A DNA stretch of 64,000 bases. It comes from Nonlabens marinus S1-08 (GTDB taxonomy: Bacteria; Bacteroidota; Bacteroidia; Flavobacteriales; Flavobacteriaceae). Location: the NCBI RefSeq assembly GCF_000831385.1, contig NZ_AP014548.1, positions 1,116,001-1,180,000 on the forward strand. The letters run 5' to 3'. The notes below the pieces were generated by a model. That model was not told the origin of the DNA. It was given only the letters and a program-made list of their open reading frames with translations, and did no database searches. Positions 2,186-63,000 of the stretch are shown in pieces. How positions within the stretch are numbered: position 1 is the first letter of the stretch; every line of letters begins with the position of its first letter. The position numbers were made by a program, and so were the translations under genes.

Positions 2186-3568
2186 TCAGTCATTTCTAGG
2201 TGATAAATAATTAGGCGTGTTCAATACAGTCTCTAGAGCTGCCTTATTGGTAATTACTTGAAACATGCTGTTGAGGTATTCAGATTGTGCTTGGTAAAGT
2301 TGGGTTTGTGCCTGTCTTAAATCAAAGCTGGTAGATATACCTTCCGTAAACTTTATCTGGTTCTTGTTCTCAATACGTTCTGCCAGTTCCAGATTCTGCT
2401 TATTGGTATAATAGGTATCAATCGCAAGCTGATAATCGTTCACGGCGGTTTCATAATCCAACCTGACCTCTTGTGAGGTGCGTTCTAGATCAGTTTCCGC
2501 TTGACCCCATGCGATTTTTGCACGTGCTGTACGCGCTTTTCTGCCGAAGGATGTAAAAACCGGCCAGTTGATACTCACACCAGCGATGGATTGCTGGAAC
2601 CATTGTGTATTGTTGTTGAAGAACACAAAGTTATTATCAAATGCCTGCGTTCCATAATTGACAAAGCCAGTTACGGTAGGCAATGCTTTGCTGCGCTCTA
2701 GCTTATATTCCAGACGTCGCTGTTCTGTCATATTATAAGCAATCTGATAATCAACTGACTTTTCCAAAGTCAGGTCTTGAGCAGGTAGTGCAAGATCAAT
2801 AGTTTTTACCGCAAGGCTTTCCAGATTATCTGTTAGGAAGACATTAGTTGCCAGGTCAAGTCCTAGGGCAAGTTGGAACATATTTATTGCAATCTCTGTT
2901 TGACGTTTTGCGCTGTTCAATTGATTGGTCAACTGCAATGTAGTAATCTGCAATTGTTCCACATCTTCTTCTTCAGTCAGGCCGTTTTCAAAGATCTTTC
3001 TGGTCTCCTCCAGATTTTCCTTGACAGTTTCTAGGTTTTTGGTAATGATATCCACATTTTCTTGGGAAAGCAACACACCACCATAGGCGTTAATAACACC
3101 TTTGCGTACTTCTAGCTTTGTTTTGTTATTGGCATTTTCAGAAAAGTCCAGAAAGGTTTTAGATGCTTCCAGTGCAACAATGTAACTGCCGTCAAAGATG
3201 ATCTGGTTCAATGTCGCAGTAAGATTGGCACTTTGTTTAGGGGAAAAGGCCACCGGTACAAATGTTCCAGGTTCTCCACCTGCAATTTCAGCGGGTAATG
3301 GCGTGATGGGCTGCTTCAATTGATTTTGATAATCAGCGGTTCCCGTGATTTGTGGCAATCCTGTAGCTGTGGTTTCCCATTTTTGCTTTAATGCTTTGAC
3401 AATATCTCTTTTGGCGTTGATCGCTTGATAGTTATTTTCCAGAGCAAAGTTGATTGCTTCTTCTACTGTGAAACTATAGTTGTTAGGTGTTTCTTGAGAT
3501 TCTTGTGAGTTCGCTTTCGCGAAAGCGAAAAAAACCAGAAGCACTAAGGTGTTTTTGATTATTGACAT
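2186..3568 (-). CDS. TolC-family outer-membrane efflux channel
   Basis: Trimeric outer-membrane exit duct of the tripartite pump. The 460-residue length is typical of the OEP family, with two repeats of long helices (about 70-240 and 270-450) and short strand segments. The start is an ATG at 3568, directly after the tetR stop codon, so translation is probably coupled. The signal peptide reads MSIIKNTLVLLVFFAFAKA followed by NSQES; its end, FAFAKA with the A-K-A cleavage site, is encoded exactly by the genome-wide palindrome at 3510-3529. The end of the gene overlaps by 8 bp the longest possible reading of the adaptor gene. Family assignment is firm; substrate is not known. Confidence 0.94.
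   Translation of the reverse strand: MSIIKNTLVLLVFFAFAKANSQESQETPNNYSFTVEEAINFALENNYQAINAKRDIVKALKQKWETTATGLPQITGTADYQNQLKQPITPLPAEIAGGEPGTFVPVAFSPKQSANLTATLNQIIFDGSYIVALEASKTFLDFSENANNKTKLEVRKGVINAYGGVLLSQENVDIITKNLETVKENLEETRKIFENGLTEEEDVEQLQITTLQLTNQLNSAKRQTEIAINMFQLALGLDLATNVFLTDNLESLAVKTIDLALPAQDLTLEKSVDYQIAYNMTEQRRLEYKLERSKALPTVTGFVNYGTQAFDNNFVFFNNNTQWFQQSIAGVSINWPVFTSFGRKARTARAKIAWGQAETDLERTSQEVRLDYETAVNDYQLAIDTYYTNKQNLELAERIENKNQIKFTEGISTSFDLRQAQTQLYQAQSEYLNSMFQVITNKAALETVLNTPNYLSPRND
3510..3529. repeat. Palindromic repeat, perfect 20-bp copy inside the tolC signal peptide
   Basis: TTCGCTTTCGCGAAAGCGAA read on the coding strand as FAFAKA, preceded by GAG on the plus strand. It forms the hydrophobic end and A-x-A cleavage motif of the TolC leader. 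Confidence 0.96.
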
Positions 3569-4183
3569 TTAATCGTGGTTTGATTGGGTAATTTCATTTA
3601 AAATCTGACGTCCTGCAGGGGTGACAATCCCGCGCAGATGGTACTCTAAATACTGATCGTACAATTCATGAACCGGATATTGATCTGGAGGGAAAACGGT
3701 AATTTCCTTAATGCCCTGAAGGCCTATAAAGTACATACGGGCAATGAATCCAGTATCTATGTTATCCCGATAAAGCCCCAGTTCCATACCTCGCTGCACA
3801 TTTTTCTGGATACATCCATTCATGTGGTCAAACTGCATAAGCTCTACTTTTTTATGAACCTCAGGATAGTATTTCTTAAGTTGATAAATAGGTGAGGTGT
3901 TGTCGCCTTTAAGTTGCTGCATGACAAATTTCTTGACATCGTACAACTCTTCAATAGGGTTAGCACTCTCTGACGCAGAAATGGCATCCACACCGTCGCA
4001 AACTTTAGTGCAGAAATGTAGAGAAGCATCATGTACTAAAGATGCTTTAGTCTTAAAATGGGCGTAGAGCGTTTTCTTGCTCATACCAATTTTACTGGCA
4101 ATCTCGTCCATAGTCACACTCTTAAACCCTAAGGTCAAGAAGAGATCCATCGACTCTTTTAATATTAAATCTTTTGTTTCCAT
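3569..4183 (-). CDS. TetR-family transcriptional repressor, probable regulator of the efflux operon
   Basis: First gene of the operon tetR-tolC-MFP-RND. The helix-turn-helix lies at about residues 24-45 of METKDLILKESMDLFLTL..., with the classical TMDEIASKIGMSKKTLYAHF pattern; the remaining 150 residues are the helical ligand-binding and dimerisation domain. An ATG 15 bases further upstream (4198) is possible, but a promoter -7 element (TATTTTTG at 4203-4196) overlaps it, so transcription would start after it; the ATG at 4183 is therefore preferred (204 residues). A perfect 9-bp inverted repeat at 4210-4237 lies directly behind the -7 element, where a repressor would block the polymerase. Autorepression with relief by a pump substrate is the likely logic (inference). 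Confidence 0.9.
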   Translation of the reverse strand: METKDLILKESMDLFLTLGFKSVTMDEIASKIGMSKKTLYAHFKTKASLVHDASLHFCTKVCDGVDAISASESANPIEELYDVKKFVMQQLKGDNTSPIYQLKKYYPEVHKKVELMQFDHMNGCIQKNVQRGMELGLYRDNIDTGFIARMYFIGLQGIKEITVFPPDQYPVHELYDQYLEYHLRGIVTPAGRQILNEITQSNHD

Positions 4184-4195
4184 AAAATTGAGGTG

Positions 4196-4203
4196 CAAAA
4201 ATA
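4196..4203 (-). promoter_or_regulatory. Bacteroidota -7 promoter element of the tetR efflux operon
   Basis: TATTTTTG read on the minus strand matches the TAnnTTTG consensus of the Bacteroidota primary sigma factor, 12 nt before the chosen tetR ATG. There is no TTG at 17-23 nt upstream; that space is filled by the inverted repeat, so the -33 element is weak or absent. Confidence 0.55.
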
Positions 4204-4209
4204 CACTAA

Positions 4210-4237: not shown

Positions 4238-4299
4238 AAAGTTTTAAAATTGTTTAACGATAGCCTTCACTTTCCCACTATGAACTAGGGATCCTTTCC

Positions 4300-4307: not shown

Positions 4308-4312
4308 AACTC

Positions 4313-6846: not shown

Positions 6847-6866
6847 TTCGCTTTCGCGAAAGCGAA
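6847..6866. repeat. Palindromic repeat TTCGCTTTCGCGAAAGCGAA, perfect 20-bp copy
   Basis: Intergenic copy lying 2 nt after the stop codon of the outer-membrane barrel gene at 6869-7420 (minus strand). As RNA it could fold into a 10-bp hairpin, but there is no U run behind it on that strand. Confidence 0.95.
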
Positions 6867-7420: not shown

Positions 7421-7484
7421 CGGTATATCTTTCGGGCAATCGTTATAAATATACAAAAGGTTATGTGGTACAATGCCAATTCTT

Positions 7485-7492
7485 TACTTTTG
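7485..7492 (+). promoter_or_regulatory. -7 promoter element of sucAB
   Basis: TACTTTTG matches TAnnTTTG and lies 38 nt before the preferred sucA ATG at 7531. Transcription from here would begin after the first possible sucA start at 7465, which supports the later start. Confidence 0.5.
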
Positions 7493-7530
7493 CGAGAACT
7501 ATTGAACACGGGAAACCTCCCGACAGATTT

Positions 7531-10287
7531 ATGGACAGATTTTCTTTTCTGAATGCAGCGCACACTGCATACTTTGCACAACTTTACGATGAATACTTGA
7601 TCAATCCTGACCGCGTTGAGCCGTCTTGGCGAGCCTTTTTTCAAGGTTTTGACCTAGGAATGGAAACTGCAGGCGATGGGGAAGTTCAAGTAGTATATGA
7701 AGATCGAGGAGAAACTAAAAGCGTAGACGTATCTGAAAAGATGCGTAAGGAGTTTGAAGTTGTTCAGCTGATTGATGGTTATAGAACTCGCGGACATTTG
7801 TTTACTAAAACAAACCCAGTACGCGAGCGTCGCAAATATGAACCAACACTAGAATTAAGCAACTTCGGTTTATCAGATGCTGATTTGAATACGGAGTTTG
7901 AATCCGGTGAATTGATAGGTCTAGGAAAAACCAGTCTCAAAAATATCGTCGATCACCTAAAGCAGGTGTATTGTGAAAGTATAGGAGTAGAGTACATGTA
8001 TGTGCGCTCTCCAGAGCAAGTGAAATGGATTCAAAGCTGGTTGCACCGCAACAACAATCATCCTGAATTTGAGAATTCACAAAAAATACAAATACTTAAG
8101 AAACTCAATGAAGCAGTTGCTTTTGAATCCTTTTTACACACTAAATATGTAGGTCAAAAGCGATTTTCCCTAGAAGGAAATGAATCTTTGATTCCTGCAC
8201 TAGACAGCCTTATTGAAAATGCGGCTGACAAAGGTGTCAACCAGTTTGTACTAGGTATGGCGCACCGTGGTCGTTTGAATGTGCTCTCAAATATCTTTGG
8301 AAAACCAGTTTCTGATATATTCTCTGAATTTGATGGGAAAGACTACGAGCAGACTATTTTTGATGGGGACGTAAAGTATCACTTAGGATATACCAGTAAG
8401 CGCAAAACAGATAACGGGAATCAGATCAATATCAACATTGTTCCCAACCCCTCACACCTAGAAACCGTTGGTGCCGTAGTAGAAGGTATCGCCCGTGCGA
8501 AACAAGACATGCACACTCCAGACGATTTTTCTAAAGTACTGCCTATCGTATTACACGGAGATGCTGCTATCGCAGGTCAAGGTATCGTCTATGAGGTCGT
8601 GCAAATGGCCAAGCTGGATGCATATAAAACAGCTGGTACCATTCACCTAGTAGTGAATAACCAGGTAGGATTTACAACCAACTACTTAGATGCAAGATCC
8701 AGTACGTACTGTACTGATATTGCAAAAGTGACTCTGTCACCAGTTTTACACGTGAATGCAGATGATGCAGAAGCCGTAGTTCACGCCATGAACTTTGCAT
8801 TAGAATACAGAATGCAATTCCAGAGCGATGTATTTATTGACCTTTTGGGTTATAGAAAATACGGTCACAATGAAGGGGATGAGCCTAGGTTCACACAACC
8901 ACAATTGTATAAGGCGATTAGCAAGCATGAGAATCCGCGAGATATTTATGCAGATAAATTGTTGAAGGCAGGTATTATTGAAGAAGGAACAGTTTCAGAA
9001 ATGGAGAGCGCCTTCAAAGAAAAACTGGAAGACCAACTCGCTACCTCAAGAAAACAAGAGAATACTGTCATTACACCATTCATGCAAGATGAATGGGAAG
9101 GCTATGAAACTGCAGACGAGGACATGATGATGCTCAAGGTCGAGACGGGTGTAGCAAAGGAGAAGCTGGAAGAGGTGACTAAAGCTATTTCTTCCTTGCC
9201 AGAAGGTGAAAACTTCATCCGTAAGATTAAGAAGATTGTAGAGTCTCGTCAATCCATGTGGGATGACGGTAAGCTAGACTGGGCGATGGGTGAACACTTG
9301 GCTTACGGTACCTTGATGCAAGAAGGTTACAACGTTCGTATGAGTGGCCAGGATGTGGAGAGAGGGACTTTCTCTCACCGTCATGCAGTTGTGAAATCAG
9401 AGAATCACGAGAATGAATTTATACTCCACAACTTACTCGATGTAGAAGGAGTGATGGAGATTTACAATTCCCACTTATCTGAATATGGAGTGGTAGGATT
9501 TGAATATGGTTACGCCATGGCGCGACCAGAAACTTTGACGATATGGGAAGCGCAGTTTGGAGATTTCTCTAACGGTGCCCAGATCATGATTGACCAGTAC
9601 ATTAGTGCTGGCGAGGACAAGTGGAAAAACCAAAATGGACTGGTTCTATTGTTGCCCCACGGCTATGAAGGTCAGGGAGCAGAGCATTCCAGTGCACGTA
9701 TGGAGCGTTATTTGCAATTGTGTGCAAAGGACAATATGTGGATGGCAAACTGTACCACACCGGCAAACATGTTTCACTTGTTGAGACGTCAAATGTTGGT
9801 GAATTACCGCAAGCCTTTAGTGGTTTTTACTCCTAAGTCGCTCTTGAGAAGCCCACGTGCAGTGAGCAGTGTTGATGATTTCATTACCGGTCATTTTCAA
9901 GAAGTGATTGATGTGGATGGTGACGCTTTCGCGAAAGCGAAAACCCTAGTCTTCACCAGTGGAAAATTCTACTATGACCTATTGGAATATAGAGAAGAAC
10001 ACGATCGCCAAGACGTAGCCTTAGTAAGAGTAGAACAATTATTCCCATTACCCATTAAACAAATTAACGAAGTCATTGAAAAGTACGGGTCTAAAGACAT
10101 CGTATGGGCTCAAGAAGAGCCACGCAATATGGGAGCTTATGCCCACCTATTATTGCACATGACTGAAACCAGAAACTGGCGCGTATGCTCCAGGAACATG
10201 TATGCCGCTCCAGCCTCAGGAAGCTCCACGAGATCTAAGGCGAGACAGGCACGAGTAATAGAAGACGTATTTAATACCAACAAATAA
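7531..10287 (+). CDS. sucA: 2-oxoglutarate dehydrogenase E1 component
   Basis: Thiamine diphosphate enzyme that decarboxylates 2-oxoglutarate and reductively succinylates the lipoyl group of SucB in the TCA cycle. I start at the ATG at 7531 ([19 protein letters not shown], 918 residues); the reading could begin at 7465, but those 22 residues do not match the family and a promoter lies inside them. Visible: the N-terminal E2-binding motif ([20 protein letters not shown]), [11 protein letters not shown] near 242-252, the ThDP/Mg site with [10 protein letters not shown] near 341 and NNQVGF, and the C-terminal transketolase part with [16 protein letters not shown]. The palindrome at 9924-9939 is read in frame as DAFAKAK in a loop just before SGKFYYDL. 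sucB follows after 4 bp. Confidence 0.97.
9924..9939. repeat. Palindromic repeat, 16-bp core, inside sucA
   Basis: CGCTTTCGCGAAAGCG within the coding sequence; translated as AFAKA. The outer two bases on the left differ from the 20-bp form. Confidence 0.95.
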
Positions 10288-16258: not shown

Positions 16259-17347
16259 ATGCATAATTTAAAGAAGCTTTACCTAGCGCTGAATCATTAT
16301 ACGTACCTTGACACTGCTACCCACGGCCTGTTGAGTACTACGCTAGTGGAGCATAAGAGTAAGCTTCATCAACAATTAGCTGTAGGTGGGAGTATATACG
16401 CCGCAAATGCAGAAGAATTGATCCATAACGCGCGTCATACCCTTGCAAACTTCTTAGATGCTGCACCGCAGTTAACGGCTCTGGTTCCTAACTTCTCACT
16501 AGCGTTCAACGCTTTACTAGAAGGAATCTCATCTTCCCATACTTTTTTACTGGTAAAAGGAGATTACCCATCAGTGAATTGGCCTGTGGAAGCACGAGGT
16601 TTCAACTGCTACTATGCCACACTCAATGCGACTCTCGAGCAAAACATTTGGCAAGCTTGTGAAGAGCACCAGCCTGATTTTTTGGCGCTTTCGCTGGTGC
16701 AATACATTAGTGGTATAAAAATCAATTTAGATTTCTTAAAAGAACTCAAGGTGCAATTCCCTGACTTGATCATTATCGCAGACGCAACGCAGTTCATAGG
16801 CGTGGAAGAATTTCGCTTTCGCGAAAGCGGAATAGACATCATCGCAGCAAGTTGCTACAAGTGGCTCAATGCAGGCGATGGTAATGCATTTATGGCATTT
16901 AAGGAAGAAGTGGCAGAGCGAGTAAAACCAAAATATACCGGGTACAACAGCAAGCAAGGGTTTAAAAACGACCGTGGATCGTTCATGGGTCATTTTGAGC
17001 CTGGACATCAAGACAGTGCTTCATTCAGCGGCCTTGAGAAAGCAATTGAGTTTGTGAACGATTATAGTATTCACAACATCTGCTCTAAGATTCAACACTT
17101 AGCGACGACCGCTAAACATCGGTTTGCAGAATTAGATTTGATACAGCCAGAAGTTGTATTGCGAGAGCAGCATTCATCTATTTTTAATATATCAGGAGAC
17201 CAACGGCTGCATGATAGGTTGAGAAAAGAAAACATATTGACAGCTATGCGTGGTCCAGGTATACGAGTGAGTTTTTCTTATTACAATGACGAGTCTGACT
17301 TAGATCAGTTGATCGAGTGTTTGAAAAAATATGATGACAGGTATTAG
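16259..17347 (+). CDS. Class V PLP-dependent aminotransferase-fold enzyme
   Basis: 362 residues of the cysteine desulfurase/isopenicillin epimerase-like class V fold. The cofactor Lys is residue 201 in ASCYKWLNAGDGN, preceded by the PLP-ring Asp in IADATQF (about residue 175). The Gly-rich segment and C-terminal RVSFSYYN are also typical. Whether it is a desulfurase, a selenocysteine lyase or an aminotransferase cannot be decided; no active-site Cys loop is evident, so a desulfurase is less likely. The palindrome at 16812-16831 encodes FRFRES just before GIDII. The next gene starts inside its last codons. Confidence 0.88.
   Translation: MHNLKKLYLALNHYTYLDTATHGLLSTTLVEHKSKLHQQLAVGGSIYAANAEELIHNARHTLANFLDAAPQLTALVPNFSLAFNALLEGISSSHTFLLVKGDYPSVNWPVEARGFNCYYATLNATLEQNIWQACEEHQPDFLALSLVQYISGIKINLDFLKELKVQFPDLIIIADATQFIGVEEFRFRESGIDIIAASCYKWLNAGDGNAFMAFKEEVAERVKPKYTGYNSKQGFKNDRGSFMGHFEPGHQDSASFSGLEKAIEFVNDYSIHNICSKIQHLATTAKHRFAELDLIQPEVVLREQHSSIFNISGDQRLHDRLRKENILTAMRGPGIRVSFSYYNDESDLDQLIECLKKYDDRY
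16812..16831. repeat. Palindromic repeat inside the class V aminotransferase gene
   Basis: Core CGCTTTCGCGAAAGCG at 16814-16829 intact; the right outer bases differ (GA for AA). Read in frame as RFRES, the only copy in this window using that frame. Confidence 0.95.
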
Positions 17348-21917: not shown

Positions 21918-21944
21918 ATTTGCTTTCGCGTAATTAATTATACA

Positions 21945-22041: not shown

Positions 22042-24879
22042 TTAATGCGCCTCCAACCAGTCTTCTCCAACGCCCACCTCCACATCCAGCGGTACAATCA
22101 ATTTATAAGCATTTTGCATTTCTTCCTGGATTAGTTTTTTCATGTCGTCCAGTTCATCTTTATGGATGTCAAAAACCAATTCATCATGCACCTGCAAGAG
22201 CATTTTTGATTTGCATTGCAGCTCTTCAAACTTCTTAAAGATGTTGATCATGGCAATTTTAATAATGTCAGCAGCACTTCCCTGAATAGGTGCGTTCACT
22301 GCATTACGCTCCGCTGCGCCTCGCACAACTGCGTTAGAACTGTTGATGTCTTTTAAATAGCGACGTCTTCCCAGTACGGTTTCTACATAGCCGTTCTCTC
22401 GAGCAAAATCTACCAATTCATCCATGTAGGAGCGCAATTTTGGATAGGTCTTGTAATAGGTTTCAATCAGTTCTTTAGATTCCGTTCGATCCAGGTCAGT
22501 TTGATTGCTTAGTCCAAAAGCGGACACTCCATAGATGATCCCAAAGTTTACTGTTTTAGCATTGCTACGCTGTTCTCTTGTTACATCTTCTAGTGCTACA
22601 TCAAATACTCGAGCAGCGGTGGAAGAGTGAATGTCTGCACCGCTCTTAAAGGCTTCCATCATGTTGTCTTCTTCGCTTAATGCGGCAATGATGCGCAATT
22701 CAATCTGCGAATAATCTGCTGCGAGCAAGACATAATTCTCATCTCTAGGCACAAAAGCTTTACGTACTTGACGTCCACGCTCCGTTCTGATTGGGATGTT
22801 TTGCAGGTTAGGATCTGTAGAACTCAAACGTCCAGTAGCTGCGACCGTTTGCATGTAGTTCGTATGTATGCGCTGGGTTGTGGGATTCACTTGATGAGGC
22901 AAGGCGTCGACATAAGTACTTTGCAATTTAGCCAGGCCACGATATTCTAACACATCTGCAATGATTTGATGGTCTGTCGCTAGGTAGCTCAACACATCTT
23001 CTGCAGTTGAATATTGACCGGTTTTGGTCTTTTTAGGCTTGTCTACCAGTTTTAACTTACCGAATAATATTTCTCCCAATTGCTTCGGTGAACCTATGTT
23101 GAATTCTTCTCCTGCTTCTTTAAAGATATTTTCTTGTAGTGATGCAATGTCTTCTGTTAGCTTTCGCGAAAGCGAACTTAAATAATCTTCATCCAGATTG
23201 ATGCCTTCAATTTCCATCGCTGCGAGTACTTTGAGCAATGGGATTTCAATATCGTGGAAGAGTTTGTCTAGGTCTGCGGCTTTTAATTCTGGCGTGAAAT
23301 GCTGTTTAAGCTGGAACGTAATGTCTGCATCTTCTACCGCGTATTCCTTAACTTTTTCTACGGCAACATCACGCATGGATTTTTGGTTCTTACCTTTTTT
23401 ACCTATCAATTCCACAATGGATTGTGGGGTGTAGTTGAGGTACGTCTCTGCCAGAATATCCATGTTGTGGCGCATGTCTGGGTTGATCAAGTAGTGTGCG
23501 AGCATAGTGTCAAATAGCGGGCCTTTAACTTCCACACCGTACTTGTCTAGCACTTTGATGTCGTATTTTAGATTCTGCCCGATTTTCTCAATGCCGGTAC
23601 TTTCAAAAAATGGCTTAAGTTGATCAACAATCGCTTGTGCTTGCTCACGATCCTCAGGAATAGGCAAGTAATACCCTTTTCCTTTTTCCCAACAAAAGGC
23701 AATCCCAACAAGCTCTGCCGCTAGCGGATCTAATCCTGTGGTTTCCGTGTCAAAACAAACGCTAGTTTGTTTCATCAATGTTTGTAGGAACAATTTGGTT
23801 CCCATTCCTTCTTGAACTGTTTGATATAGATGATCTGTTGTAGCTAGCGTTTGACGGCCCGTAGCTTGGGCTTCAGCTTTTGTGCCAGATCCTGGCGCAT
23901 CGAATAGGGAGAATTGACCAGAGCCGGCTCCATTTGAACCGGTCTCGGCTGGGCTCGAACTTACATTTTGCTCTAAAACCTCTTTAGAGAAAATCTTAGC
24001 GAGTGTCTCTTTGGCTCTTCTAAATTCAAGTTCGTCAAAGATCACATGAACGGCCTCCACATCTGGATCGTCGAGTGTGTATTTTTCGGCACTAAATTTT
24101 ACAGGGCAATCGAGCTTTATAGTGGCAAGTTGTTTAGAAAGTCGACCTAGCTGGGCATTAGCCAAAATTTTCTCACCCAGTTTTCCTTTAATATTGTGCG
24201 CATCGTCAAGGAGCGCTTCCATGGAACCGTATTGTTTGATAAATTTCTTAGCCGTTTTATCTCCCACACCAGGCAATCCCGGAATATTATCACTGGCATC
24301 ACCCATCATTCCTAGGTAATCGATTACTTGTTCTGGATGTTCTACTTCAAAACGTTTTTGAACTTCAGGAATTCCCCAGATCTCGATGCCATTACCCATA
24401 CGGGCAGGCTTGTACATGTAAATATTTTCTGAAACCAGCTGTGCGTAATCCTTGTCTGGCGTTACCATGTATACGGTAAAACCTTCTTTCTCAGCTTGTT
24501 TAGAAAGTGTCCCGATCAAATCGTCAGCCTCAATACCTGCTTCAACGACGATAGGAATGTGCATGGCTTTAAGAATACGCTGGATGTATGGAATGGCGAG
24601 TCTAATGGCTTCAGGCGTCTCATCGCGGTTGGCTTTATAGTCTTCATAAAGCTCCGTACGCTCAGCACTTCCTTCTTTGTCAAAAGCGACGGCTAGATAT
24701 TCAGGTTTTTCCCGGCGTATGACATCAAAAAGCGAGTTGGTAAAACCCATAATGGCACTGGTGTCCATTCCTTGAGAATTGATGCGTGGATTCTTGATCA
24801 GCGCATAATAACCTCTAAAAATCAGCGCATAGGCATCTAGTAAAAACAGTCTTTTATCGTCAGTTCCGTCGTTTGTCAA
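22042..24879 (-). CDS. polA: DNA polymerase I
   Basis: Repair and Okazaki-fragment polymerase. 945 residues with all three domains: 5'-3' exonuclease (1-300, LFLLDAYALIFRGYYAL, DDLIGT, DASDNIPG), 3'-5' proofreading exonuclease (about 355-540) with an intact DTETTGLDP motif, and the polymerase domain with DYSQIELR (motif A), the KTVNFGIIYG O-helix and HDELVFD (motif C). The start must be a TTG (24879-24877, MTNDGTDDKRLF): no ATG or GTG is available before the conserved LLDAYAL. The palindrome at 23157-23176 is read as SLSRK in a non-conserved helix just before the polymerase domain. Confidence 0.96.
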   Translation of the reverse strand: MTNDGTDDKRLFLLDAYALIFRGYYALIKNPRINSQGMDTSAIMGFTNSLFDVIRREKPEYLAVAFDKEGSAERTELYEDYKANRDETPEAIRLAIPYIQRILKAMHIPIVVEAGIEADDLIGTLSKQAEKEGFTVYMVTPDKDYAQLVSENIYMYKPARMGNGIEIWGIPEVQKRFEVEHPEQVIDYLGMMGDASDNIPGLPGVGDKTAKKFIKQYGSMEALLDDAHNIKGKLGEKILANAQLGRLSKQLATIKLDCPVKFSAEKYTLDDPDVEAVHVIFDELEFRRAKETLAKIFSKEVLEQNVSSSPAETGSNGAGSGQFSLFDAPGSGTKAEAQATGRQTLATTDHLYQTVQEGMGTKLFLQTLMKQTSVCFDTETTGLDPLAAELVGIAFCWEKGKGYYLPIPEDREQAQAIVDQLKPFFESTGIEKIGQNLKYDIKVLDKYGVEVKGPLFDTMLAHYLINPDMRHNMDILAETYLNYTPQSIVELIGKKGKNQKSMRDVAVEKVKEYAVEDADITFQLKQHFTPELKAADLDKLFHDIEIPLLKVLAAMEIEGINLDEDYLSSLSRKLTEDIASLQENIFKEAGEEFNIGSPKQLGEILFGKLKLVDKPKKTKTGQYSTAEDVLSYLATDHQIIADVLEYRGLAKLQSTYVDALPHQVNPTTQRIHTNYMQTVAATGRLSSTDPNLQNIPIRTERGRQVRKAFVPRDENYVLLAADYSQIELRIIAALSEEDNMMEAFKSGADIHSSTAARVFDVALEDVTREQRSNAKTVNFGIIYGVSAFGLSNQTDLDRTESKELIETYYKTYPKLRSYMDELVDFARENGYVETVLGRRRYLKDINSSNAVVRGAAERNAVNAPIQGSAADIIKIAMINIFKKFEELQCKSKMLLQVHDELVFDIHKDELDDMKKLIQEEMQNAYKLIVPLDVEVGVGEDWLEAH
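23157..23176. repeat. Palindromic repeat inside polA
   Basis: 19 of 20 bases match; the perfect core here is GCTTTCGCGAAAGC (23160-23173). Read on the polA strand as SSLSRK. Confidence 0.93.
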
Positions 24880-25120: not shown

Positions 25121-25136
25121 CGCTTTCGCGAAAGCG
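25121..25136. repeat. Palindromic repeat, intergenic copy between the MFS gene and polA
   Basis: Core CGCTTTCGCGAAAGCG intact, extended to CGAACT on the right side. It lies 62 bp after the MFS stop codon (minus strand). Confidence 0.95.
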
Positions 25137-26699: not shown

Positions 26700-26715
26700 C
26701 GCTTTCGCGAAAGCG
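26700..26715. repeat. Palindromic repeat, intergenic copy between divergent MFS and metallophosphoesterase genes
   Basis: Core CGCTTTCGCGAAAGCG intact with AA on the right; 102 bp before the phosphoesterase ATG. Confidence 0.95.
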
Positions 26716-32405: not shown

Positions 32406-32509
32406 GGGCATTTTTAACAGCTGCTAAAATAGTAATAATAAAAAGACACAGTAGTAGTACAACGTGCGTAGTCCATTTTCATTTTACAAGAATTAATTTT
32501 TTAAAAGGG

Positions 32510-33714: not shown

Positions 33715-33734
33715 TTCGCTTTCGCGAAAGCGAA
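33715..33734. repeat. Palindromic repeat, perfect 20-bp copy between divergent GDPD and rimP genes
   Basis: Full TTCGCTTTCGCGAAAGCGAA preceded by GAG, 92 bp from the GDPD ATG and 104 bp upstream of the rimP -33 element. Confidence 0.95.
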
Positions 33735-38989: not shown

Positions 38990-39009
38990 TTCGCTTTCGC
39001 GAAAGCGAA
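38990..39009. repeat. Palindromic repeat, perfect 20-bp copy between divergent SPOR and act operons
   Basis: Full TTCGCTTTCGCGAAAGCGAA preceded by GAG and followed by C; 19 bp before the SPOR-protein ATG, so it lies in its 5' leader or promoter. Confidence 0.95.
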
Positions 39010-40528: not shown

Positions 40529-43500
40529 ATGGCTACTACTAAAAAATACTGGAAAAGCAGCGCTCAACTTGATGAGAGCAATGAGATGGTAAAATCTCTT
40601 GAGCAAAACGAGTTCGCTACCGCTATTCCAACCGAAGAGTTTTTAGGAAACGATAAAGCGATGGAGGCTTCTAGCACCACGCGTCGTGACTTCCTTAAAT
40701 ACGTAGGGTTCAGTACTGCAGCAGCATCTCTTGCGGCTTGTGAAGGGCCTGTAATTAATTCTGTTCCTTATGTGAACCAGCCAGAGCGCTTGATTCCAGG
40801 AATGGCAAATTACTATGCGACTACCATTGCAAATGGATATGATTTTGCAAGCGTGGTTGTGAAAACTCGTGAGGGGAGACCTATCAAGATTGAAGGCAAT
40901 AGAGATATCAATGCTCGCGGTAATGCAAATGCTCGTGTTCATGCATCCGTTCTAGGGTTGTATGATAACAATCGTTTAAAGACTCCTTTAGTTAAAGGTA
41001 AAGAAGCAACTTGGTCGCAGTTAGATGAAGAGGTTCGTCAGCAATTGAATGCAAATGCTGGAAAGCAAATCGTTTTCTTAACCCAAACTTTTGCAAGTCC
41101 TTCTGTTACAAAATTGATGGAAGAATTCAAAGCAGCCTATCCTAATGTACGCCAAGTAGTCTACGATACGGTAGGTGAAGACGCAGCATTGGATGCTTTT
41201 GAAGCAAAATACTTTCAGCGCGGTCTTGCAGACTATGACTTTAAAGATGCGGAATGCATCGTGGGTGTAGGAGCAGACTTTGTGGGTGATTGGCAAGGTG
41301 GTAATTTTGATACCAACTACGCACAATCTAGAGTTCCTAAGAATGGGAAGATGTCTCATCACGTTCAGTTTGAGTCTAACATGACTCTTTCTGGTGCTAA
41401 TGCAGATAGACGTTACCCAGTAACTCCAACGGAACAAAAACAAATTATAGCAGCTCTTTACAGTAAGGTAGTTGGCGGTTCTGCCAACAGTAATCTTTCT
41501 GATAAAGTGGCTAAAGCTGTGGAAGAAGCAGCACAATCTTTACGCCGTGCTGGTAGTAAAGCTGTCGTTCTTTGTGGTATTCCTGATCAAGGAGCGCAAC
41601 AATTGACGTTAGAAATCAACGAGAGACTCGGTAGTACGATTATCGATACAGCCGCGCCTATTTTGACCCGTCAAGGTAGCCGTGCAGCAGTGAATCAACT
41701 GGTGAAAGACATGGAAAGCGGTGCCGTGGGTGCTGTGTTTGTTGCAGGTGTTGATCCGGTTTACAGTTATGATGAAAGTGACGCTTTCGCGAAAGCGTGG
41801 AAGAATGTACCTCTTAAGGTATCTTTTGCATCTCGTTTAGATGCTACAGCAGCACAGTCTGACTATGTAGCCACTACACCTCACTACCTAGAATCATGGG
41901 GGGATGTAGAAATGAAGAAAGGAACAGTTTCCTTAATGCAGCCTACCATCCAGCCGTTATTCGACACGCGCCAGATGCAAGACTCTTTATTGAAGTGGTC
42001 TGGTAGCGATGTGTCTTATAAGGATTATTTAAAGAACAGTTCTACGGCCAACGGTTCCAGCTGGAATCAATCGCTACAGGATGGTTTCTATACCGCAACA
42101 GCATCTGAGACTTTGGGTGGTGATGTGGAAACACCAACCGTAAATAACGCAAGTGCATTACGGGACTTGTCTGCAGCTACAAAAACAGGTGATTTTGAGT
42201 TGGTGTTGTATACTAAGACAGCTCTAGGAGATGGTTCACAAGCGAACAACCCATGGTTGCAGGAGCTTCCTGATCCTATCACAAGAACTACTTGGGATAA
42301 TTACATGACAATCTCGCAAAAGGATGCAGAGCGTCTAGGGATTGAAAACTATAACGTAGCAAATGGTGCTTTAGACGGTACCTATGCTATTGTTAAAATG
42401 GACGGTGTGGAACGTAAAATTCCAGCATTGATCCAGCCAGGTCAAGCAGAAGGTACCGTTGGTATCGCTTTGGGTTACGGTCGTACGGCTGGAATCCAAG
42501 AGGAGATGCAAACAGGTGTGAATGCATTCCCGTTCTTTAAGAATGGAGTATCTATTCAATCTGTGGGTGTTGTATCTGGTGGTGGTATTCACGAGTTTGC
42601 TTGTACACAATTGCAAAATACCATGATGGGTCGCGATATCATTCGTGAAACAGACATGGCAACTTATTTAACAGGAAATAAGGATTACTTCAATCCTATG
42701 CCTGAGGTTTCTTTGAATCACATTGAAACCCCAGTAACTTCTCCAGATGTAGATCTTTGGGAAAGTTTTGATAGGTCTGTAGGACACCATTTCAACATGT
42801 CGATTGACTTGAACGCTTGTACAGGTTGTGGTGCATGTGTTGTTGCTTGTCATGCAGAAAATAATGTGCCTGTAGTTGGAAAAACTGAGGTAAGAAGATC
42901 AAGAGATATGCACTGGTTGCGTATCGATAGATACTACTCTTCTACCGATAGTTTTGAGGATGATGAGGCTAAGAAAGATGGTTTCTCTGGATTGTTTGGA
43001 GAAAATGGATCTCTTGGAGGTTTCGGAGAGTTGGAAATCCCAGCTGATGAGCCACAGGTTGCTTTCCAGCCATTGATGTGTCAGCACTGTAACCACGCTC
43101 CATGTGAGACGGTTTGTCCAGTCGCAGCATCTTCACACGGTCGTCAAGGTCAAAACCACATGATTTACAACCGTTGTGTAGGTACCAGATATTGTGCGAA
43201 CAACTGTCCATATAAAGTTCGTCGATTCAACTGGTTCTTGTACAATGGAAATGATGAGTTTGATTACCATATGAATAATGATCTAGGTCGCATGGTTATC
43301 AATCCAGATGTTACCGTACGTTCTAGAGGTGTGATGGAGAAATGTTCTATGTGTATTCAAATGACACAGATGACCATTCTTGAAGCCAAAAAAGACGGTC
43401 GCATGATTGAAGATGGAGAATTTGCTACGGCTTGTTCTAATGCTTGTTACAATGGTGCCATTACTTTTGGAGATATCAATGATAAAGATTCAGAGATCTA

Positions 43501-45060: not shown

Positions 45061-45594
45061 ATGGCGACACATAAAATACATGCTCTTTACAATGATGATG
45101 ATGTTTTACTGCGTGCAGTAAAACAAGTCAGAGAGCAACATTTCCATATTGAAGATATTTTCTGTCCTTTCCCAGTTCACGGACTTGAAAAGGCGATGGG
45201 TCTAGCAGATACCCGATTAGCTATCAACGCGTTTCTTTATGGAATCGTGGGTCTAGCCGTAGGAACTGCCATGATGAATTACATCATGATTGAGGATTGG
45301 CCACAAAATATAGGTGGAAAGCCTAGTTTTTCTTATTTGGAAAATATGCCTGCATTCGTGCCTATCATGTTTGAGTTAACAGTATTCTTTGCCGCGCACT
45401 TGATGGTAATCACATTTTACTTGCGCAGTAGATTATGGCCATTTAAGAAAGCAGAAAACCCAGATGTAAGAACCACAGACGATCATTTCTTGATGGAAGT
45501 AGATGCTCATGGAGAAGACATTGACTCGATCACAAAATTTTTATACGATACAGGAGCCGTTGAGCTTGTATTAATCGACAAAGAAGATCATTGA
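45061..45594 (+). CDS. actD: Alternative complex III subunit D (DUF3341)
   Basis: 177 residues: a soluble N-terminal domain with a ferredoxin-like pattern (1-60; YNDDDVLLRAVKQVREQHF, then the CPFPVHGLEKAMGL motif), two membrane helices (about 58-80 and 98-120), and a short C-terminal domain. DUF3341 is the ActD family. Its stop codon overlaps the actE start (TGATG), so translation is coupled. Confidence 0.94.
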   Translation: MATHKIHALYNDDDVLLRAVKQVREQHFHIEDIFCPFPVHGLEKAMGLADTRLAINAFLYGIVGLAVGTAMMNYIMIEDWPQNIGGKPSFSYLENMPAFVPIMFELTVFFAAHLMVITFYLRSRLWPFKKAENPDVRTTDDHFLMEVDAHGEDIDSITKFLYDTGAVELVLIDKEDH

Positions 45595-46337
45595 TGAATA
45601 CGTATTTAAAATCAGTACTATGGGCACTTGCTGTCCTACTTACAGTTTCTTGCCAGAGTGGTGGTGAGAAGGAAGTAGGCGCAAAATCCAATCGCAGTGT
45701 GCAATACTTTCCTAACATGTATGAAGATGTAGGTTACAGCACTTATTCTGAAGGCGATGTGTTTACGAACAACATGGAAGCACAAAAGCCAGTTGATGGA
45801 ACCGTTTCTCGTGGGTGGTTGCCATATAACTATGAAGATGATAATGAAGGGTACGCTTCCGCGAAAGCGAACTTAACCAACCCAGTACCATTAACAGAAG
45901 ATCATCTGGCTAACGGACAAGCATTATACGGAATTTATTGTGCTATCTGTCACGGAAATAAAGGAGATGGACAAGGTCACTTGGTGAAGACTGAAAAGAT
46001 CCTAGGTGTTCCAAGTTATGACGCTAGAGAAATAACTCAAGGTTCAATTTATCACGTAATGTATTATGGTATTAATTCCATGGGATCCTATGCGTCACAG
46101 ACAAGTACAGAGGAACGTTGGGAAATAGCACATTATGTAGATGCTTTGAGAGCTGACCTGATGGGTGTTGCTAGAAAGCCAGTAATGGATAAAACGGGTA
46201 GCGTAACAAACTCCCCTGTTACCGCTACTGACTCTACAGCTACAATGACGGAAGTTCCTGTGGAGGAAAACACCGCAACTGATGCTGGTAACTCAGTAGA
46301 TCAGCAAGAAGTACAACAAATGAACGACGGTCAGTAA
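45594..46337 (+). CDS. actE: Alternative complex III subunit E, monoheme cytochrome c lipoprotein
   Basis: The ATG at 45594 overlaps the actD stop by one base. 247 residues: lipoprotein signal MNTYLKSVLWALAVLLTVSC with acylated Cys20, a cytochrome c domain with one heme site CAICH (Cys116), axial Met in YYGINSMGSY, and a Thr/Glu/Val-rich tail (about 205-247). It probably hands electrons to the oxidase. At 45854-45869 a single-mismatch copy of the genome palindrome encodes ASAKAN, close to the FAFAKA frame used in other genes. Confidence 0.94.
   Translation: MNTYLKSVLWALAVLLTVSCQSGGEKEVGAKSNRSVQYFPNMYEDVGYSTYSEGDVFTNNMEAQKPVDGTVSRGWLPYNYEDDNEGYASAKANLTNPVPLTEDHLANGQALYGIYCAICHGNKGDGQGHLVKTEKILGVPSYDAREITQGSIYHVMYYGINSMGSYASQTSTEERWEIAHYVDALRADLMGVARKPVMDKTGSVTNSPVTATDSTATMTEVPVEENTATDAGNSVDQQEVQQMNDGQ
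45854..45869. repeat. Degenerate palindromic repeat (one mismatch) inside actE
   Basis: CGCTTCCGCGAAAGCG: one T-to-C change at 45859 in the left arm of the 16-bp core. Either a decayed or a not yet completed copy. Confidence 0.8.
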
Positions 46338-51443: not shown

Positions 51444-51463
51444 TTCGCTTTCGCGAAAGCGAA
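51444..51463. repeat. Palindromic repeat, perfect 20-bp copy between divergent peroxiredoxin-like and ruvB genes
   Basis: Full TTCGCTTTCGCGAAAGCGAA preceded by GAG; 79 bp from one ATG and 60 bp from the other. Confidence 0.95.
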
Positions 51464-53910: not shown

Positions 53911-53934
53911 AGTTCGCTTTCGCGAAAGCGAACT
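53911..53934. repeat. Palindromic repeat, longest copy (24-bp perfect palindrome)
   Basis: The 20-bp form at 53913-53932 is extended by AG and CT to a perfect 24-bp palindrome. It lies 17 bp after the P450 stop and upstream of maeB, on no gene. Confidence 0.96.
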
Positions 53935-57024: not shown

Positions 57025-60000
57025 TTGAGGCAAGATTATATCAATCTGATACGCAAGTATTTATATGTCGTAATGTGTTTAGTTGTTTTCGCTTTCGCGA
57101 AAGCGCAAGTACCATCCACCACACCGCAAGATTCAACTGAAACTGGATTTAAAGTAGGTAAACTCACCTTACCCGACCCGCCCAGCATTACCACACTTTA
57201 CTTATACGATCCAGATTTAGATCGGTATATTTTTTCTAGCCGCTTTGCCCAGTACCGCATTCAATACCCATTTACCTTAACTCGAGAAGAGTATCAGCAA
57301 ATGGTGATTAAAGAGCAAATACGTTCCTATTTTCAAGAAAAATCTGCCACACTAGCCGGTAAGACGGAAGCTGATAAAGAAAAGCAGAAAAATTTGCTTC
57401 CTAATTTCTATGTAGATTCTGATTTGTTTAATAGCATTTTTGGCGGGAGTGAGATTTCTATCATTCCTCAAGGAAACGTGGCGATTGATTTAGGACTTCT
57501 GTATAATAAAACAGATAACCCTAGTTTTTCCCCTAGGAACCGGCAGAACCTCACCTTTGATTTTAATCAGCGCATCAACCTGAGTTTGACGGGTACGGTA
57601 GGTACTCGACTGAATGTGAATGCGAACTATGATACGGAAGGCTCTTTTGACTTTCAGAATCAAATCAAACTGGACTATACACCTACGGAAGATGATATTT
57701 TACAAAGTATTGAAGTAGGTAACGTGAGCATGCCGCTCAACTCGCAGTTGATACGAGGAGCGCAAAGCCTTTTTGGGGTAAAGACGGAATTACAGTTTGG
57801 TAAAACCAGAATTACAAGTGTTTTCTCAGAGCAGCAATCAGAATCTAGGACCGTTCAGGCGGCTGGTGGTGCGACCATCAATGACTTCGATTTTTTCTCT
57901 TTAGATTATGATGAGAATAGGCACTTCTTTTTAGCCCATTATTTTAGAGATAACTATGATAAGACATTAGCTAACTATCCATTTCTCAATACTAATATTC
58001 AGATCACGAGAGCTGAGGTATGGATCACCAACCGAGGAAATCGAACACAAGATGTAAGAAACCTAGTAGCTATTCAAGATATAGGAGAATCAGATCCTTC
58101 TAATATAGGTCTAGATCAGGTTCCACCTGGATTTTTGAATGCGGCACCGGGTAGCTTTCCTAGCAATCGAAATAATGATTTTAACCCAGTAGCCATCAGC
58201 AATGGTGGTGAAACGATATTGAATCGACAGATACGTGACGTAGCTACGGTGGAACAAGGCTTTGGAAGTGCCCAAGTGAATGAGGGGTTTGACTATGTAG
58301 TGTTAGAAAATGCACGTCAATTAAATCCTAGTGAGTACAAATTAAACCCGCAATTGGGTTATATCTCTTTAAACCAACGTTTGAACAATGATGAAGTAGT
58401 CGCGGTAGCGTTTCAATATACAGTAGGCGGTCAGGTTTTTCAAGTAGGTGAGTTTGCAAATGATGGAGTTACAGCCACTGAGGTGAATCAAAACCAAGGC
58501 GCGACCCAGCAGGTGGTGACAAACCAGAATTTAGTGGTGAAATTATTGAAGAGTAATTTGACTAATGTTTCAGAACCTATCTGGGACTTGATGATGAAGA
58601 ACATCTATAATCTGGGCGGTAGTCGTTTGTCTGCCGAAGATTTTAAACTGAACATCTTTTATCAATACCCACCAGAGCTCAATTATCTCACGGCTGCTCC
58701 TGGAACATTAGCTAATCCCGCTGTACCATTACCAGACGATGTCGATCAAACTACCTTACTTAGAGTTTTTAACCTTGACAACTTAAACCAGCAACTAGAC
58801 CCGCAACCATCAGGCGACGGTTTCTTCGACTTTGTTCCAGAAATCACTATTGAACCAGAAACAGGCAGAATCATTTTCACCACAGTAGAGCCCTTTGGAG
58901 AACATTTGTTTGATGAATTGGACAACACTCCTGTAGGCGGAACAGAAAACTACAACGATCCTACTACATATAATGCAAATCAAGCTCAGTACGTTTATAG
59001 AGAAATGTATCGCACTACCAAGGCACAAGCTTTACAGAATACCGAAAAGAATAAATATTTAATTAGAGGAGAATACAAATCAAGCGGTCAACAAGGTATA
59101 CCCATTGGTGGCTTCAATGTACCACGCGGTTCCGTTACGGTAAATGCTGGAGGAAGAACATTGCAGGAGGGTATTGATTATACAGTAGATTATGCCCGTG
59201 GTGTCGTGATCATATTAGATCAGGCTTTGTTAAATTCTAACGTTCCAATCCAAGTTTCTACTGAAAACAACTCGACTTTCAATCAGCAAACCAAACGATT
59301 TACGGGAATCAATGTAGAACATCAATTCAGTGAAGATTTAATAATAGGCGGTACGTTCCTAAACTTGAAAGAACGCCCCATTACTCAGAAGTCCACTTAT
59401 GGAACAGAGCCTATAAACAACACCATAATAGGCGCTAACTTTTTGTACAATACAGAGCTTCCATTCCTTACCAGACTGGCTAACCGCCTTCCCAATATTG
59501 ATACAGATGTAATGTCGAATCTTTCCCTACGAGGTGAGGCAGCTTACTTATTTCCAGGATCGCCTGATAGTGATAATTTCAACGGGCAAGCAGCTGCATA
59601 TGTCGATGATTTTGAAGGGTCCCAGACGTCTATTGATATCTTGTCTCCACTCAGCTGGAATCTGGCAAGTACTCCTGTGGCATTTGAAGGAGCAGGAAGT
59701 CCTAATAACCCATTAGCATACAATTATAGCCGTGGGAGATTGGCCTGGTACACCATTGACCCCATATTTTATGGAAACCAACGTCCCACAGGAATCAGCG
59801 ATGCTGATGTTTCCGACTATCGTACACGTCGCGTTTTTATCGATGAAATTTTTCCTCAAGTCGATATTCAGCAAGGTTTAACTCAGGTTATTAATACACT
59901 AGACTTATCCTTTTACCCAGATGAACGAGGTTCTTATAATTACAACCCGGCAGCTGCTGGAACTAATTTATTGCCTAATCCACAAAATAGCTGGGGTGGA

Positions 60001-63000
60001 ATAACCAGAACCTTTTTGAGTACAGATTTTGAACAAACTAATGTAGAGTACGTTCAATTTTGGGTAATGGACCCATTCTTATACGATCCAGCAAATGATG
60101 GGGGTACGATTTCTTTGAACTTAGGAAGCATCTCTGAAGATATTTTAAAGGACAATCGCAAGCAGTATGAGAATGGACTGCCGGAGGATGGCGGCACAGA
60201 TCTTACAGTTCCCACAGCTTTTGGAAAAGTACCTTTGAATCAATCGCTGATCTATGCGTTTGATACTGAAGGTCAAGAGCGCATCAATCAGGATATAGGT
60301 CTGGATGGTTATAGCGATGCTGAGGAAGTTCGTGACTTTCCGCAATTCGGCCCAGAGGATCCAGCAGCAGATAATTATGAATATTACCTCGCTGCCACAG
60401 GAGATGTGTTGGAAAGATACAAGCGCTATAACAATACAGAGGGAAACTCACCTACCCAAGTCACTCAAACCAATCGCGGTTCTACTACGTTACCAGATGT
60501 GGAAGACATCAACAGGGACAATACCATGAATACGATCGATAGCTATTTTGAATATGATATCGATGTCTATCCTGGAATGGATGTAGATAACAATCCATAC
60601 ATCAATGACTCAAGGTTAGTGAACACGACCTTGCCTAATGGTTCAACCATTGAAACTCGCTGGGTACAATTCCGTGTACCATTGAATGACCCAACTCGGG
60701 AGGCGATTGGTGGAATCAATGATTTCAGGGCTATACGATTCATGAGAATGTATTTGTCAGATTTTGAGGTGGATACGTTTTTGCGTTTTGGTGCTATGGA
60801 TTTGGTACGAGGCGATTACCGTCGTTTCACGGCATCGCTAGATCCTAATGATCCTAATGTAGACGACGATGCTACGACTTTTGAAGTACAAGCGGTGAAT
60901 ATTGAAACTAATGATGCTCGTACTCCCATACCGTACCGTTTACCTCCTGGAGTAATAAGAGAAGAGCTACGCACTCAAAATCAAAACATACGTCAAAACG
61001 AGCAATCTCTTTCCTTGCGAGTAGAAGATCTAGAAGCATTTGATAGAAGAGCGGTATTTAAAAATATTCGTATTGATATGCGTCAATATGAAAACTTGCA
61101 AATGTTTGTGCATGCAGAGTCTCTGGTAAACGATACTCCATTAAATGATGGAGAATTGGAAGCCTTTATTCGTATAGGTGTTGATTTTACAAACAATTAT
61201 TATGAAGTAAGAATACCACTTACCACAACTCCATTTGGAACCACCATACCATCAGAAATTTGGCCAGCGGCAAATGAGTTTGATATCGACCTTTCCTTGT
61301 TACAAGAAATCAAGTCAAGGGTGTTGAGTGATCCAACTCTCATAAATAGTGAAGTTAATTTCTTCAATCAAGCAGATTTAGAACCTGATTCTGCAGGAGA
61401 GCCTAACCAGCAGATTTATGGAATTAAAGGGAATCCAAATTTTGGCGACGTTAGAGCAATAATGCTAGGAGTTCGCAATAGCGGGAAATCAACAATTGGT
61501 GGCGAAGTTTGGTTCAATGAGTTGCGACTTTCAGGGCTTAAAAATCAAGGAGGCTATGCGGCCGTCATGAATCTTGACGCAAACGTGGCTGACTTTGCTA
61601 CGATCAGCGCTAATGGTAGAAGAAGCACGGTAGGTTTTGGAGCAATAGAGCAAGGACCTAATGAGCGCAGCCGTGAAGACGTCACACAATACGATGTAAC
61701 CACAAGTATAGGAGTGGGTCAGCTATTCCCTAAGAAATGGGGGTTAAATATTCCTTTTTCGTATAGAATTGAAGAGGAAACAGTAACACCACAATTTGAT
61801 CCACAATTTGAGGATATTGAGTTAGATACCCGACTTGCAAATGCAACTAGCGATGAAGAGCGCGATGCCATACAGGAACAGTCAGAAGATTATACTAGAC
61901 GTCAAAGTATCAACTTAATTGGAGTAGGGAAGGATCGTACAGGCGATAGTAAACCCATGCCCTACGATATCGAAAACTTTATTTTTTCAGGATCGTACAA
62001 TCAAACAGACCAGCGCAATTTTGAGATTGAGCAATTTAAAAATCAAGCGGTGAATGTAAATGCAACTTACAATTATGCATTTCCAGAATTTAAAGTAGAG
62101 CCCTTTAAAGAGGCGGACACTACCCTTGCGGGAGATTATTTGAAGTTTATTCGAGACATCAATTTTAACCTGTTGCCTAATAATTTTACAGCTAGCGGGT
62201 CTATAGTTAGACAATTCAATAAGCAAACTTTCCGTGATTTACAGTTGGACACTAATCCTGTAGATTTAGATGGTGACGGGATTCCTGACGCCCAAAACAT
62301 TGCCATTGCACCGCTTACAAATCGCAACTTTACTTTAGGGAATAGATACGCTATTACATGGGACTTGACCCAGTCGCTCAATTTGAACATTTCTGCAAAC
62401 AACGACCGGATTGTACGCAGTTACATAGATAATGAGACGAACACTATTGATGAGAATTATACGCTCTGGAGCAATTTCTTGGATGAAGGAATTCCAGATT
62501 CCCATACACAACAGTTTAAAGCGACTTATCAAGTACCCTTCAGTAAGCTGCCTTTTCTCGCTTTCGCGAAAGCGACATATACCTACACCGCAGACTTTAA
62601 TTGGCAACGTAATTCCCAGCAATTCCAGCAATTAGAAGGAATTCCGAATTTAGGAAACAGTGTGCAAAACGCCAACACGCATCGTATTAATGGGAATTTA
62701 GATCTAGACAAGTTGTACAAATACGTAGGTTTAGAAAAGAAAAAATTTGGAGCTGCAGCACGCAAGGATGCCCAGCAAAGATCAAGAAGTACTTCTAGAA
62801 GTAGACTTCCTAGAGCAAATCAAGAAAGCGGCAATCTTGCTGAGGTAGAAAAGAAAGAGGACATCAATATTCCTAAAGAAAATTTTGCCAATAAGACATA
62901 CAACACTGTAGTCGGAGTTTTAACATCAATAAAGCGGGCCACAATCAATTACGAGGAAAATAATGGGACATATCTTCCTGGATATACCCCTAGCGTTGGG

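Follow-up and report, generated by a model that had tools for sequence, protein, structure and literature searches.

Words iterated across a whole genome are uncommon, and to our knowledge the best known palindromic one, highly iterated palindrome 1 (HIP1; GCGATCGC), has no agreed function. Genomes that carry such palindromes have been reported to encode matching methylases (PMC4390886), and the DNA uptake sequences (DUS) of Neisseria have been reported to occupy permissive places, with block replacement at missing sites, a ratio of exact to one-mismatch copies of about 2.4:1 and a 2Nes of about 4 (PMC2397512). Here we describe a perfect palindrome, GCTTTCGCGAAAGC, that recurs in a 64,000-nucleotide stretch of Nonlabens marinus S1-08 (hereafter the window; positions 1,116,001–1,180,000 of a single-contig genome of 2,915,920 bases, labelled G000). 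It is longer than HIP1, its copies are exact and regularly spaced, and a small clade holds most of them. We found no earlier report of it or of its 16-mer in the open-licence literature, in which papers on highly iterated palindromes name no Flavobacteria in their titles and abstract openings, and none combine iterated palindromes with Bacteroidetes. Papers that mention Nonlabens together with palindromes deal with other matters, judged by title and abstract opening, as do, by their listing, those that link natural transformation and uptake sequences to Flavobacteria.

The repeat is genuine: it extends over the whole genome and across the clade, and it is maintained in the face of mutation. 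The 2.916-Mb genome contains 728 exact copies of the 14-mer and 653 of the 16-mer, compared with none of a letter-reversed control, so that the repeat seen by the sequence-only reading of the window extends well beyond it, rather than falling to the chance-level count set beforehand as its refutation. Allowing one mismatch yielded 819 copies, that is, 91 one-mismatch copies even though 42 one-mismatch words exist (exact to one-mismatch, about 8:1), and in 38 stretches of 20 kb (760 kb) copies with zero, one, two and three mismatches numbered 186, 15, 11 and 30; copies are nearly all-or-none. In a simple two-state balance, a model of our own, the scaled strength ln(42 × exact/one-mismatch) is about 5.8. 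Short-word counts over 464 kb with full sites masked, compared with a Markov expectation, pointed to no shorter word that is recognized or avoided: none of the 4- to 8-mers of the palindrome exceeded about 1.7-fold, some 7- and 8-mers were 1.4–1.7-fold up, and TTCG/CGAA and CGCG were rarer than expected outside sites (TTCG 1488 versus 2639, CGCG 998 versus 1455), as were several further palindromic 4-mers. Because no subword was strongly raised outside full sites, the maintained unit is best read as the whole 14-mer. Two other 12-mers, TTAAGAGTTAAG (9 copies) and TTCCCTCAAGGG (7 copies), recurred outside the palindrome in the same genome's sample.

Within the window, 16 matches to the 16-mer with up to two mismatches were found, against 0.01 expected from dinucleotide shuffles. 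All 15 perfect cores of the sequence-only reading are present, its start positions differing solely through the choice of the first base of the core, and its one-mismatch and half copies were also recovered. The copies are given below by 14-mer core in window numbering, with open reading frames (ORFs) called mechanically at a minimum of 100 codons, and with their state in five relatives that are 75–78% identical to the window; 12 of 75 site comparisons were unaligned and are excluded from the counts.

3513..3526, exact core inside a TolC-like gene (2186-3568; the TolC match is below the NCBIfam cut-off); exact in 5/5 relatives.
6850..6863, exact core, intergenic; exact in 4/4 aligned relatives.
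9925..9938, exact core inside sucA (7465-10287); exact in 20/21 Nonlabens sucA sequences that cover the position, its own included, with one mismatch in G009.
16815..16828, exact core inside an ORF (16259-17347); exact in 5/5 relatives.
21921..21929, half copy, GCTTTCGCG.
23160..23173, exact core inside polA (22042-24879, minus strand); exact in 5/5 window relatives.
25122..25135, exact core, intergenic according to the ORF caller; 3 mismatches in G008 and 5 in G020, three relatives unaligned.
26701..26714, exact core, divergent intergenic; all 5 relatives unaligned.
31568..31581, exact core inside an ORF (29052-32411); exact in 5/5 relatives.
33718..33731, exact core, divergent intergenic; exact in 4/4 aligned relatives.
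38993..39006, exact core, intergenic; exact in 4/5 relatives, 8 mismatches in G009.
41783..41796, exact core inside an ORF (40529-43600); exact in 4/5 relatives, one mismatch in G009.
45855..45868, one-mismatch copy, GCTTCCGCGAAAGC, inside an ORF (45591-46337).
51447..51460, exact core, divergent intergenic; exact in 5/5 relatives.
53916..53929, exact core, intergenic; exact in 3/4 aligned relatives, 7 mismatches in G020.
57091..57104, exact core near the start of a large ORF (57025-63999); exact in 5/5 relatives.
62560..62573, exact core inside the same large ORF (57025-63999); exact in 4/4 aligned relatives.

The large ORF, open at the window end, has at least 2325 codons and contains two palindromes. 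By relative, 13/13, 13/14, 11/13, 8/11 and 12/12 aligned sites were exact (57/63 in total), against a background in which 4–6% of random aligned 14-mers are identical. The SucA copy is exact at synonymous positions as well, two further partial Nonlabens sequences stopping short of it. The PolA copy was less constant, being exact in five and absent from five of ten other Nonlabens rows (two rows identical), and was exact also in G229, G086 and G436. The closest named locus to the window's PolA is that of N. xylanidelens (83% identity), to which the PolA of G007, from the same genus, is identical. Rows from other genera aligned without a gap at the site in 13 of 16 cases for SucA, the other three being gapped, and in 17 of 17 siteless cases for PolA; the two copies therefore came about through substitutions or the replacement of blocks, and at these two genes the view that the repeat is not an insertion sequence was borne out. 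G004 and G008 differ by about 4%; of the 114 sites aligned between them 112 were kept, core divergence was 0.3%, and both exceptions are single mismatches. When sites were missing in pairwise comparisons within the window, 13 of 39 cases, drawn from few distinct loci, had eight mismatches, the most frequent state and the one that block replacement would give, and ten one-mismatch cases were the same two G009 sites recurring across five comparisons. Maintenance may be weakening in G009, because it has one-mismatch copies of two sites that its relatives kept.

Placement was analysed in the window together with the 38 stretches (824 kb in total, 201 sites and 162 gaps). ORFs contained 118 of the sites and 83 lay between ORFs, an intergenic density 5.7 times the coding density; coding copies were distributed 67/26/25 over the three frames, the commonest of which reads AFAKA, and 5 of 42 intergenic copies lay between convergent genes, which is no enrichment. 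The sequence-only reading had called the copies not clustered, a description that holds but understates the pattern, as spacing was evener than random. Only 5 of 162 gaps were shorter than 1 kb, versus 41.5 expected (minimum 26) in a control that preserved how many sites are coding and how many intergenic, and the coefficient of variation (CV) of spacing over the first 100 16-mer sites was 0.61 versus 0.99 for random placement. Among the first 94 sites of G004, 5 of 93 gaps were below 1 kb versus 18.6 expected, yet the overall CV was 0.92. Mean density was about one site per 4 kb; across the 38 stretches the four chromosome quarters had 5.3, 4.6, 4.8 and 4.9 sites per 20 kb (index of dispersion 0.49), with no origin or terminus bias. 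Two large deserts were read. One is the ribosomal-protein/secY/rpoA operon, in which a phage-family scan gave no phage structural genes, and the other (G000:C1:63001-81000, L309) has type I HsdM and HsdS genes next to others that include those for an AAA ATPase and a serine beta-lactamase-family protein; no HsdR turned up in the ORFs scanned. The HsdM/HsdS desert would fit scarcity in recently acquired DNA, but phage contigs bear sites and the other desert is a ribosomal operon. Sequence within 500 bp of a site was 2.1–3.8 percentage points more divergent than DNA more than 1 kb away in four relatives, which are not independent of one another (P = 0.018, 0.026, 0.034 and 0.096, with null distributions made by shifting sites); no such effect was seen in the close pair G004/G008.

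The core is embedded in a wider compositional signal. The extended consensus proposed by the sequence-only reading proved partly right, as flank frequencies in the 200 of 201 sites with full flanks ranged from 93% (C at −8) through T at −10 (82%), T at −9 (64%) and T or G at −11 (56% and 34%) down to A at −12 (55%). C made up 2–14% of the 5′ flank from −10 to −25, against a background of 20%, and the 3′ flank was G-poor by symmetry, so that the signal extends some 25 bp to either side of the centre, about 50 bp in all, with a T/G-enriched 5′ flank on each strand. The same bias was present in the 118 coding and 82 intergenic sites taken separately, in five Nonlabens relatives and in G244, and was weaker in G229 and in islands of other genera. 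Symmetric positions beyond 9 paired no more often than column composition predicts, which argues that the flank is a composition preference rather than a longer hairpin. In G244 (L220, L288) the flank favours TAC/GTA versus TTC/GAA in Nonlabens, in what looks like a flank dialect.

All 23 Nonlabens genomes surveyed carry 288–857 exact 14-mers each. Ratios of one-mismatch to exact copies were raised in G009 (125:478; L237-L240) and G021 (133:288). Across 397 Flavobacteriaceae genomes, four of them Nonlabens, 79 had at least one exact copy and 318 had none; among the 393 from outside Nonlabens, hundreds of copies occurred only in G229 (408) and G244 (857), and 73 others had 1–19. A midpoint-rooted PolA tree places Nonlabens close to G229 and G244, although the node is unresolved. 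In 60 kb of G229 (L221, L222, L289), TAATGGGTT-like 9-mers number 12 where about 1 is expected, and they may be a second repeat of that genome. No comparable palindrome was seen in Maribacter, Aquimarina, Muricauda, Leeuwenhoekiella, Zobellia, Arenibacter or Croceitalea (38–387 kb per genus), in which the top 14-letter palindrome had 6 copies in 255 kb and enriched 9-mers, present in five of the genera, were weak.

Mismatched copies made up a larger share outside the clade than within it, and low-copy genomes were of more than one kind. In seven sampled by stretches, copies were at least partly grouped; our own tally over 16 such island stretches came to 34 exact copies, 10 with one mismatch and 9 with two, and the scanned ORFs of three were mainly for efflux of copper and other metals (resistance–nodulation–division pumps, multicopper oxidase, P-type ATPases, ArsP). 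A pair of palindromes exactly 933 bp apart recurs in four genera (L205, L206, L214 and L216; G131, G253, G122 and G145), in L206 with both copies inside an outer-membrane efflux gene that belongs to a block of metal-resistance genes and in L214 within an ORF of equal length. Five genomes looked like relics, with exact and one-mismatch copies of 15/30 (G436), 6/19 (G086), 9/20 (G186), 6/17 (G362) and 4/20 (G350) against 0 or 1 for controls; the corresponding numbers in other low-copy genomes were 16/10 (G120), 19/9 (G323) and 17/7 (G095). In G086 and G436 the PolA copy occupies the same codons as in Nonlabens and G229, flanking synonymous codons being saturated, and local nucleotide identity to G229 or to the window was not raised, contrary to recent transfer. 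At this one locus the alignment suggests an older origin of the palindrome followed by loss.

Phages differed in whether they bear sites. Two published Nonlabens phages (close relatives, 35.7 kb each), which have no annotated integrase and which we take to be lytic, contained no copy within two mismatches. Exact 16-mers were present in 41 viral stretches, all chosen for having a site. Among the 14-mers of the 34 stretches with a GC content of at most 50%, 56 were exact, 10 had one mismatch and 1 had two, and 11 of the 22 gaps in these stretches measured 4.1–5.2 kb, some of these being the same gap repeated in like contigs. Portal and capsid genes were found in both of two viral stretches scanned and a tape-measure gene in one, and we infer that the site-bearing phage contigs are temperate.

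The exactness and symmetry of the core and the width of its flank suggest a dimeric protein that reads double-stranded DNA. Our preferred reading, with a probability of roughly 0.42, is that the palindrome may be the site of such a symmetric DNA-binding protein and serve as a DNA-uptake or self-DNA signal. We lean towards a signal of this kind on two grounds. The palindrome agrees with the description of DUS in its exactness, spacing and permissive placement, and some bacteria that the papers concerned assign to Flavobacteriaceae transform with partly unknown machinery: Riemerella is naturally transformable and needs for this a set of essential genes whose function is unknown (PMC8459023), and R. 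columbina reportedly favours DNA of its own (PMC7965970). The palindrome would be read by a dimeric, sequence-specific protein at work in Nonlabens and in two further genera, DNA with at least one site would be favoured at entry or recombination, and alleles bearing exact sites would displace alleles lacking them. Such a process could account for exact copies, for spacing close to the length of incoming fragments and the small benefit of a nearby second site, and for the preference for permissive places and the absence from DNA lacking such a history. An uptake or self signal, which the sequence-only reading did not consider, agrees with the pattern no less well than the options raised there. 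A fuller version, which we advance more tentatively, is a palindromic self or uptake signal of Bacteroidota with a putative symmetric receptor working without type IV pili; the signal would be old enough for a PolA copy to be common to Nonlabens and a genus that later lost most of its sites, synonymous divergence between them being saturated.

Several observations weigh against an uptake or self signal. We know of no established uptake signal that is palindromic, and the near-exact sites in phage contigs are explained as well by a chromosome-structuring or nuclease-protection role. Between G004 and G008, divergence was independent of distance to a site (difference 0.0010, shift-null standard deviation 0.0024, P = 0.31), and so no site-centred recombination was detected by this indirect measure of limited power; a hint of a distance effect in 64 kb was gone in 464 kb. 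The two sites that differ between these genomes are single mismatches, not blocks. A reader protein or receptor was not found among the candidates considered, no unbiased gene-content comparison having been made, and ComEC, present in 23/23 Nonlabens and in 37/39 relatives overall, is too nearly universal to be diagnostic. No paper on natural transformation of Nonlabens was found in the open-licence literature, and one report describes Flavobacterium johnsoniae as not transformable under Riemerella conditions (PMC7965970).

The main rival is a chromosome-structuring site, at which a nucleoid protein would sit on each copy, even spacing would set loops or domains of a few kilobases and weak selection would keep the sites; we regard this as somewhat unlikely. 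A chromosome-organising protein was among the proposals of the sequence-only reading, and uniform density, short-range exclusion, conserved positions, the ~50-bp flank signal and the copies in phage contigs all agree with it. Noc, SlmA and MatP sites, however, show origin or terminus biases of which there is no trace here, and the palindrome has no exact copy in 318 of the 397 family genomes. Nor do site-rich genomes share an extra ParB/Noc-like paralog that could be the reader: a single ParB of about 300 amino acids is present in every one of 18 Nonlabens and likewise in G229 and in G244, and an extra 616-amino-acid form occurs in two Nonlabens. This 616-amino-acid ParB-domain protein, perhaps borne by mobile elements, stands beside the usual ParB in G000 (G000:C1:1269093), G015, G253 and G186, and G253 has a 598-amino-acid one besides.

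A two-way Chi-like site, at which a recombination or nuclease complex would be attenuated at the core from either side and a C-poor, T/G-rich flank would aid RecA loading, is distinctly improbable. It draws on a 5′ flank that is poor in C and enriched in T/G on both strands, on the absence of sites from one phage pair and on the density of E. coli Chi, which is close to the one per 4 kb seen here. Known Chi sites are 5–8 nucleotides long, read on a single strand, oriented and non-palindromic; an exact 14-bp palindrome is neither oriented nor an octamer or shorter, even spacing is not a Chi trait as far as we know, and G004 and G008 showed no divergence gradient around sites.

More doubtful still is an element maintained with an orphan DNA methyltransferase in the manner of HIP1. 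The style is the same, a short palindrome iterated through coding and intergenic DNA across a clade, and HIP1-like behaviour, claimed by the sequence-only reading, was upheld in these respects. The methylase that it offered as an alternative fared less well. Of 21 Nonlabens tested, 9 lacked C5-methylase genes (PF00145), as did G229; every one of these genomes retains hundreds of sites, and a C5 methylase, the class surveyed here as distinct from N6 and N4 enzymes, is therefore rejected as the common keeper. Fourteen invariant positions are long for a methylase, and no subword exceeded about 1.7-fold outside sites, CGCG and TTCG being depleted. Taken as a whole, the sequence-only reading was partly supported, its HIP1-like behaviour standing, its exclusion of an insertion sequence standing at the two genes examined, and its methylase weakened.

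An RNA-level element (terminator, attenuator or processing hairpin) is highly improbable, for although a perfect palindrome would fold as an RNA hairpin, the copies in ORFs occupy all three frames, convergent intergenic regions show no excess, the flanks, T-rich before and A-rich after the palindrome, run opposite to those of a terminator, and pairing of the arms shows no excess beyond position 9; the sole RNA family in the window was one tRNA-Gln. Least probable is a mobile-element or transposon footprint, to which the clusters in islands of other genera would point, as copies share nothing beyond the site and flank composition, those in sucA and polA align mostly without gaps to siteless relatives, and the scanned ORFs of three island stretches are chiefly metal-resistance cargo with no single element ending in the palindrome.

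Related genera with few or decayed copies make it possible to compare keeper and non-keeper genomes for the missing protein, and sites could be altered in a small marine bacterium. Should the palindrome prove to be an uptake signal, it would add a third kind with an evolutionary origin of its own, would offer a natural means of tracing genes that leave Nonlabens, and would open DNA import in Bacteroidota to study; the Riemerella screen describes essential genes that resemble no known machinery (PMC8459023). If instead it is architectural, it would be a countable, kilobase-scale ruler of the chromosome.

On the tests run, the palindrome is DUS-like and HIP1-like in behaviour and is assigned to neither. 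Repetitive extragenic palindromes and bacterial interspersed mosaic elements (REP/BIME) are intergenic only, unlike a repeat with 118 of 201 copies in ORFs. Noc-binding sites and parS are 14–16-bp palindromes with TTTC...GAAA halves, like this one, but differ in the spacing of the centre and are far fewer, and the palindrome has neither a terminus gap nor a shared extra ParB paralog. E. coli Chi has in common with it a T/G-enriched 5′ flank and absence from one phage pair, whereas the palindrome is symmetric, unoriented, about twice as long and evenly spaced. With HIP1 it shares iteration of a short palindrome genome-wide, in coding and intergenic DNA and across a clade; the iterated word is GCTTTCGCGAAAGC rather than GCGATCGC, with a 14-bp core at about one per 4 kb and no C5-methylase link found. 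It differs from Neisseria DUS and the uptake signal sequences (USS) of Haemophilus in being palindromic, in its 14 invariant bases, in a spacing of about 4 kb versus about 1.1–1.5 kb, in its occurrence in Bacteroidota, in a desert that is a core operon and in phage contigs that bear sites. Like them, it is present in hundreds of copies among which exact ones are favoured, lies in permissive places and is conserved in position, with occasional gain or loss in blocks.

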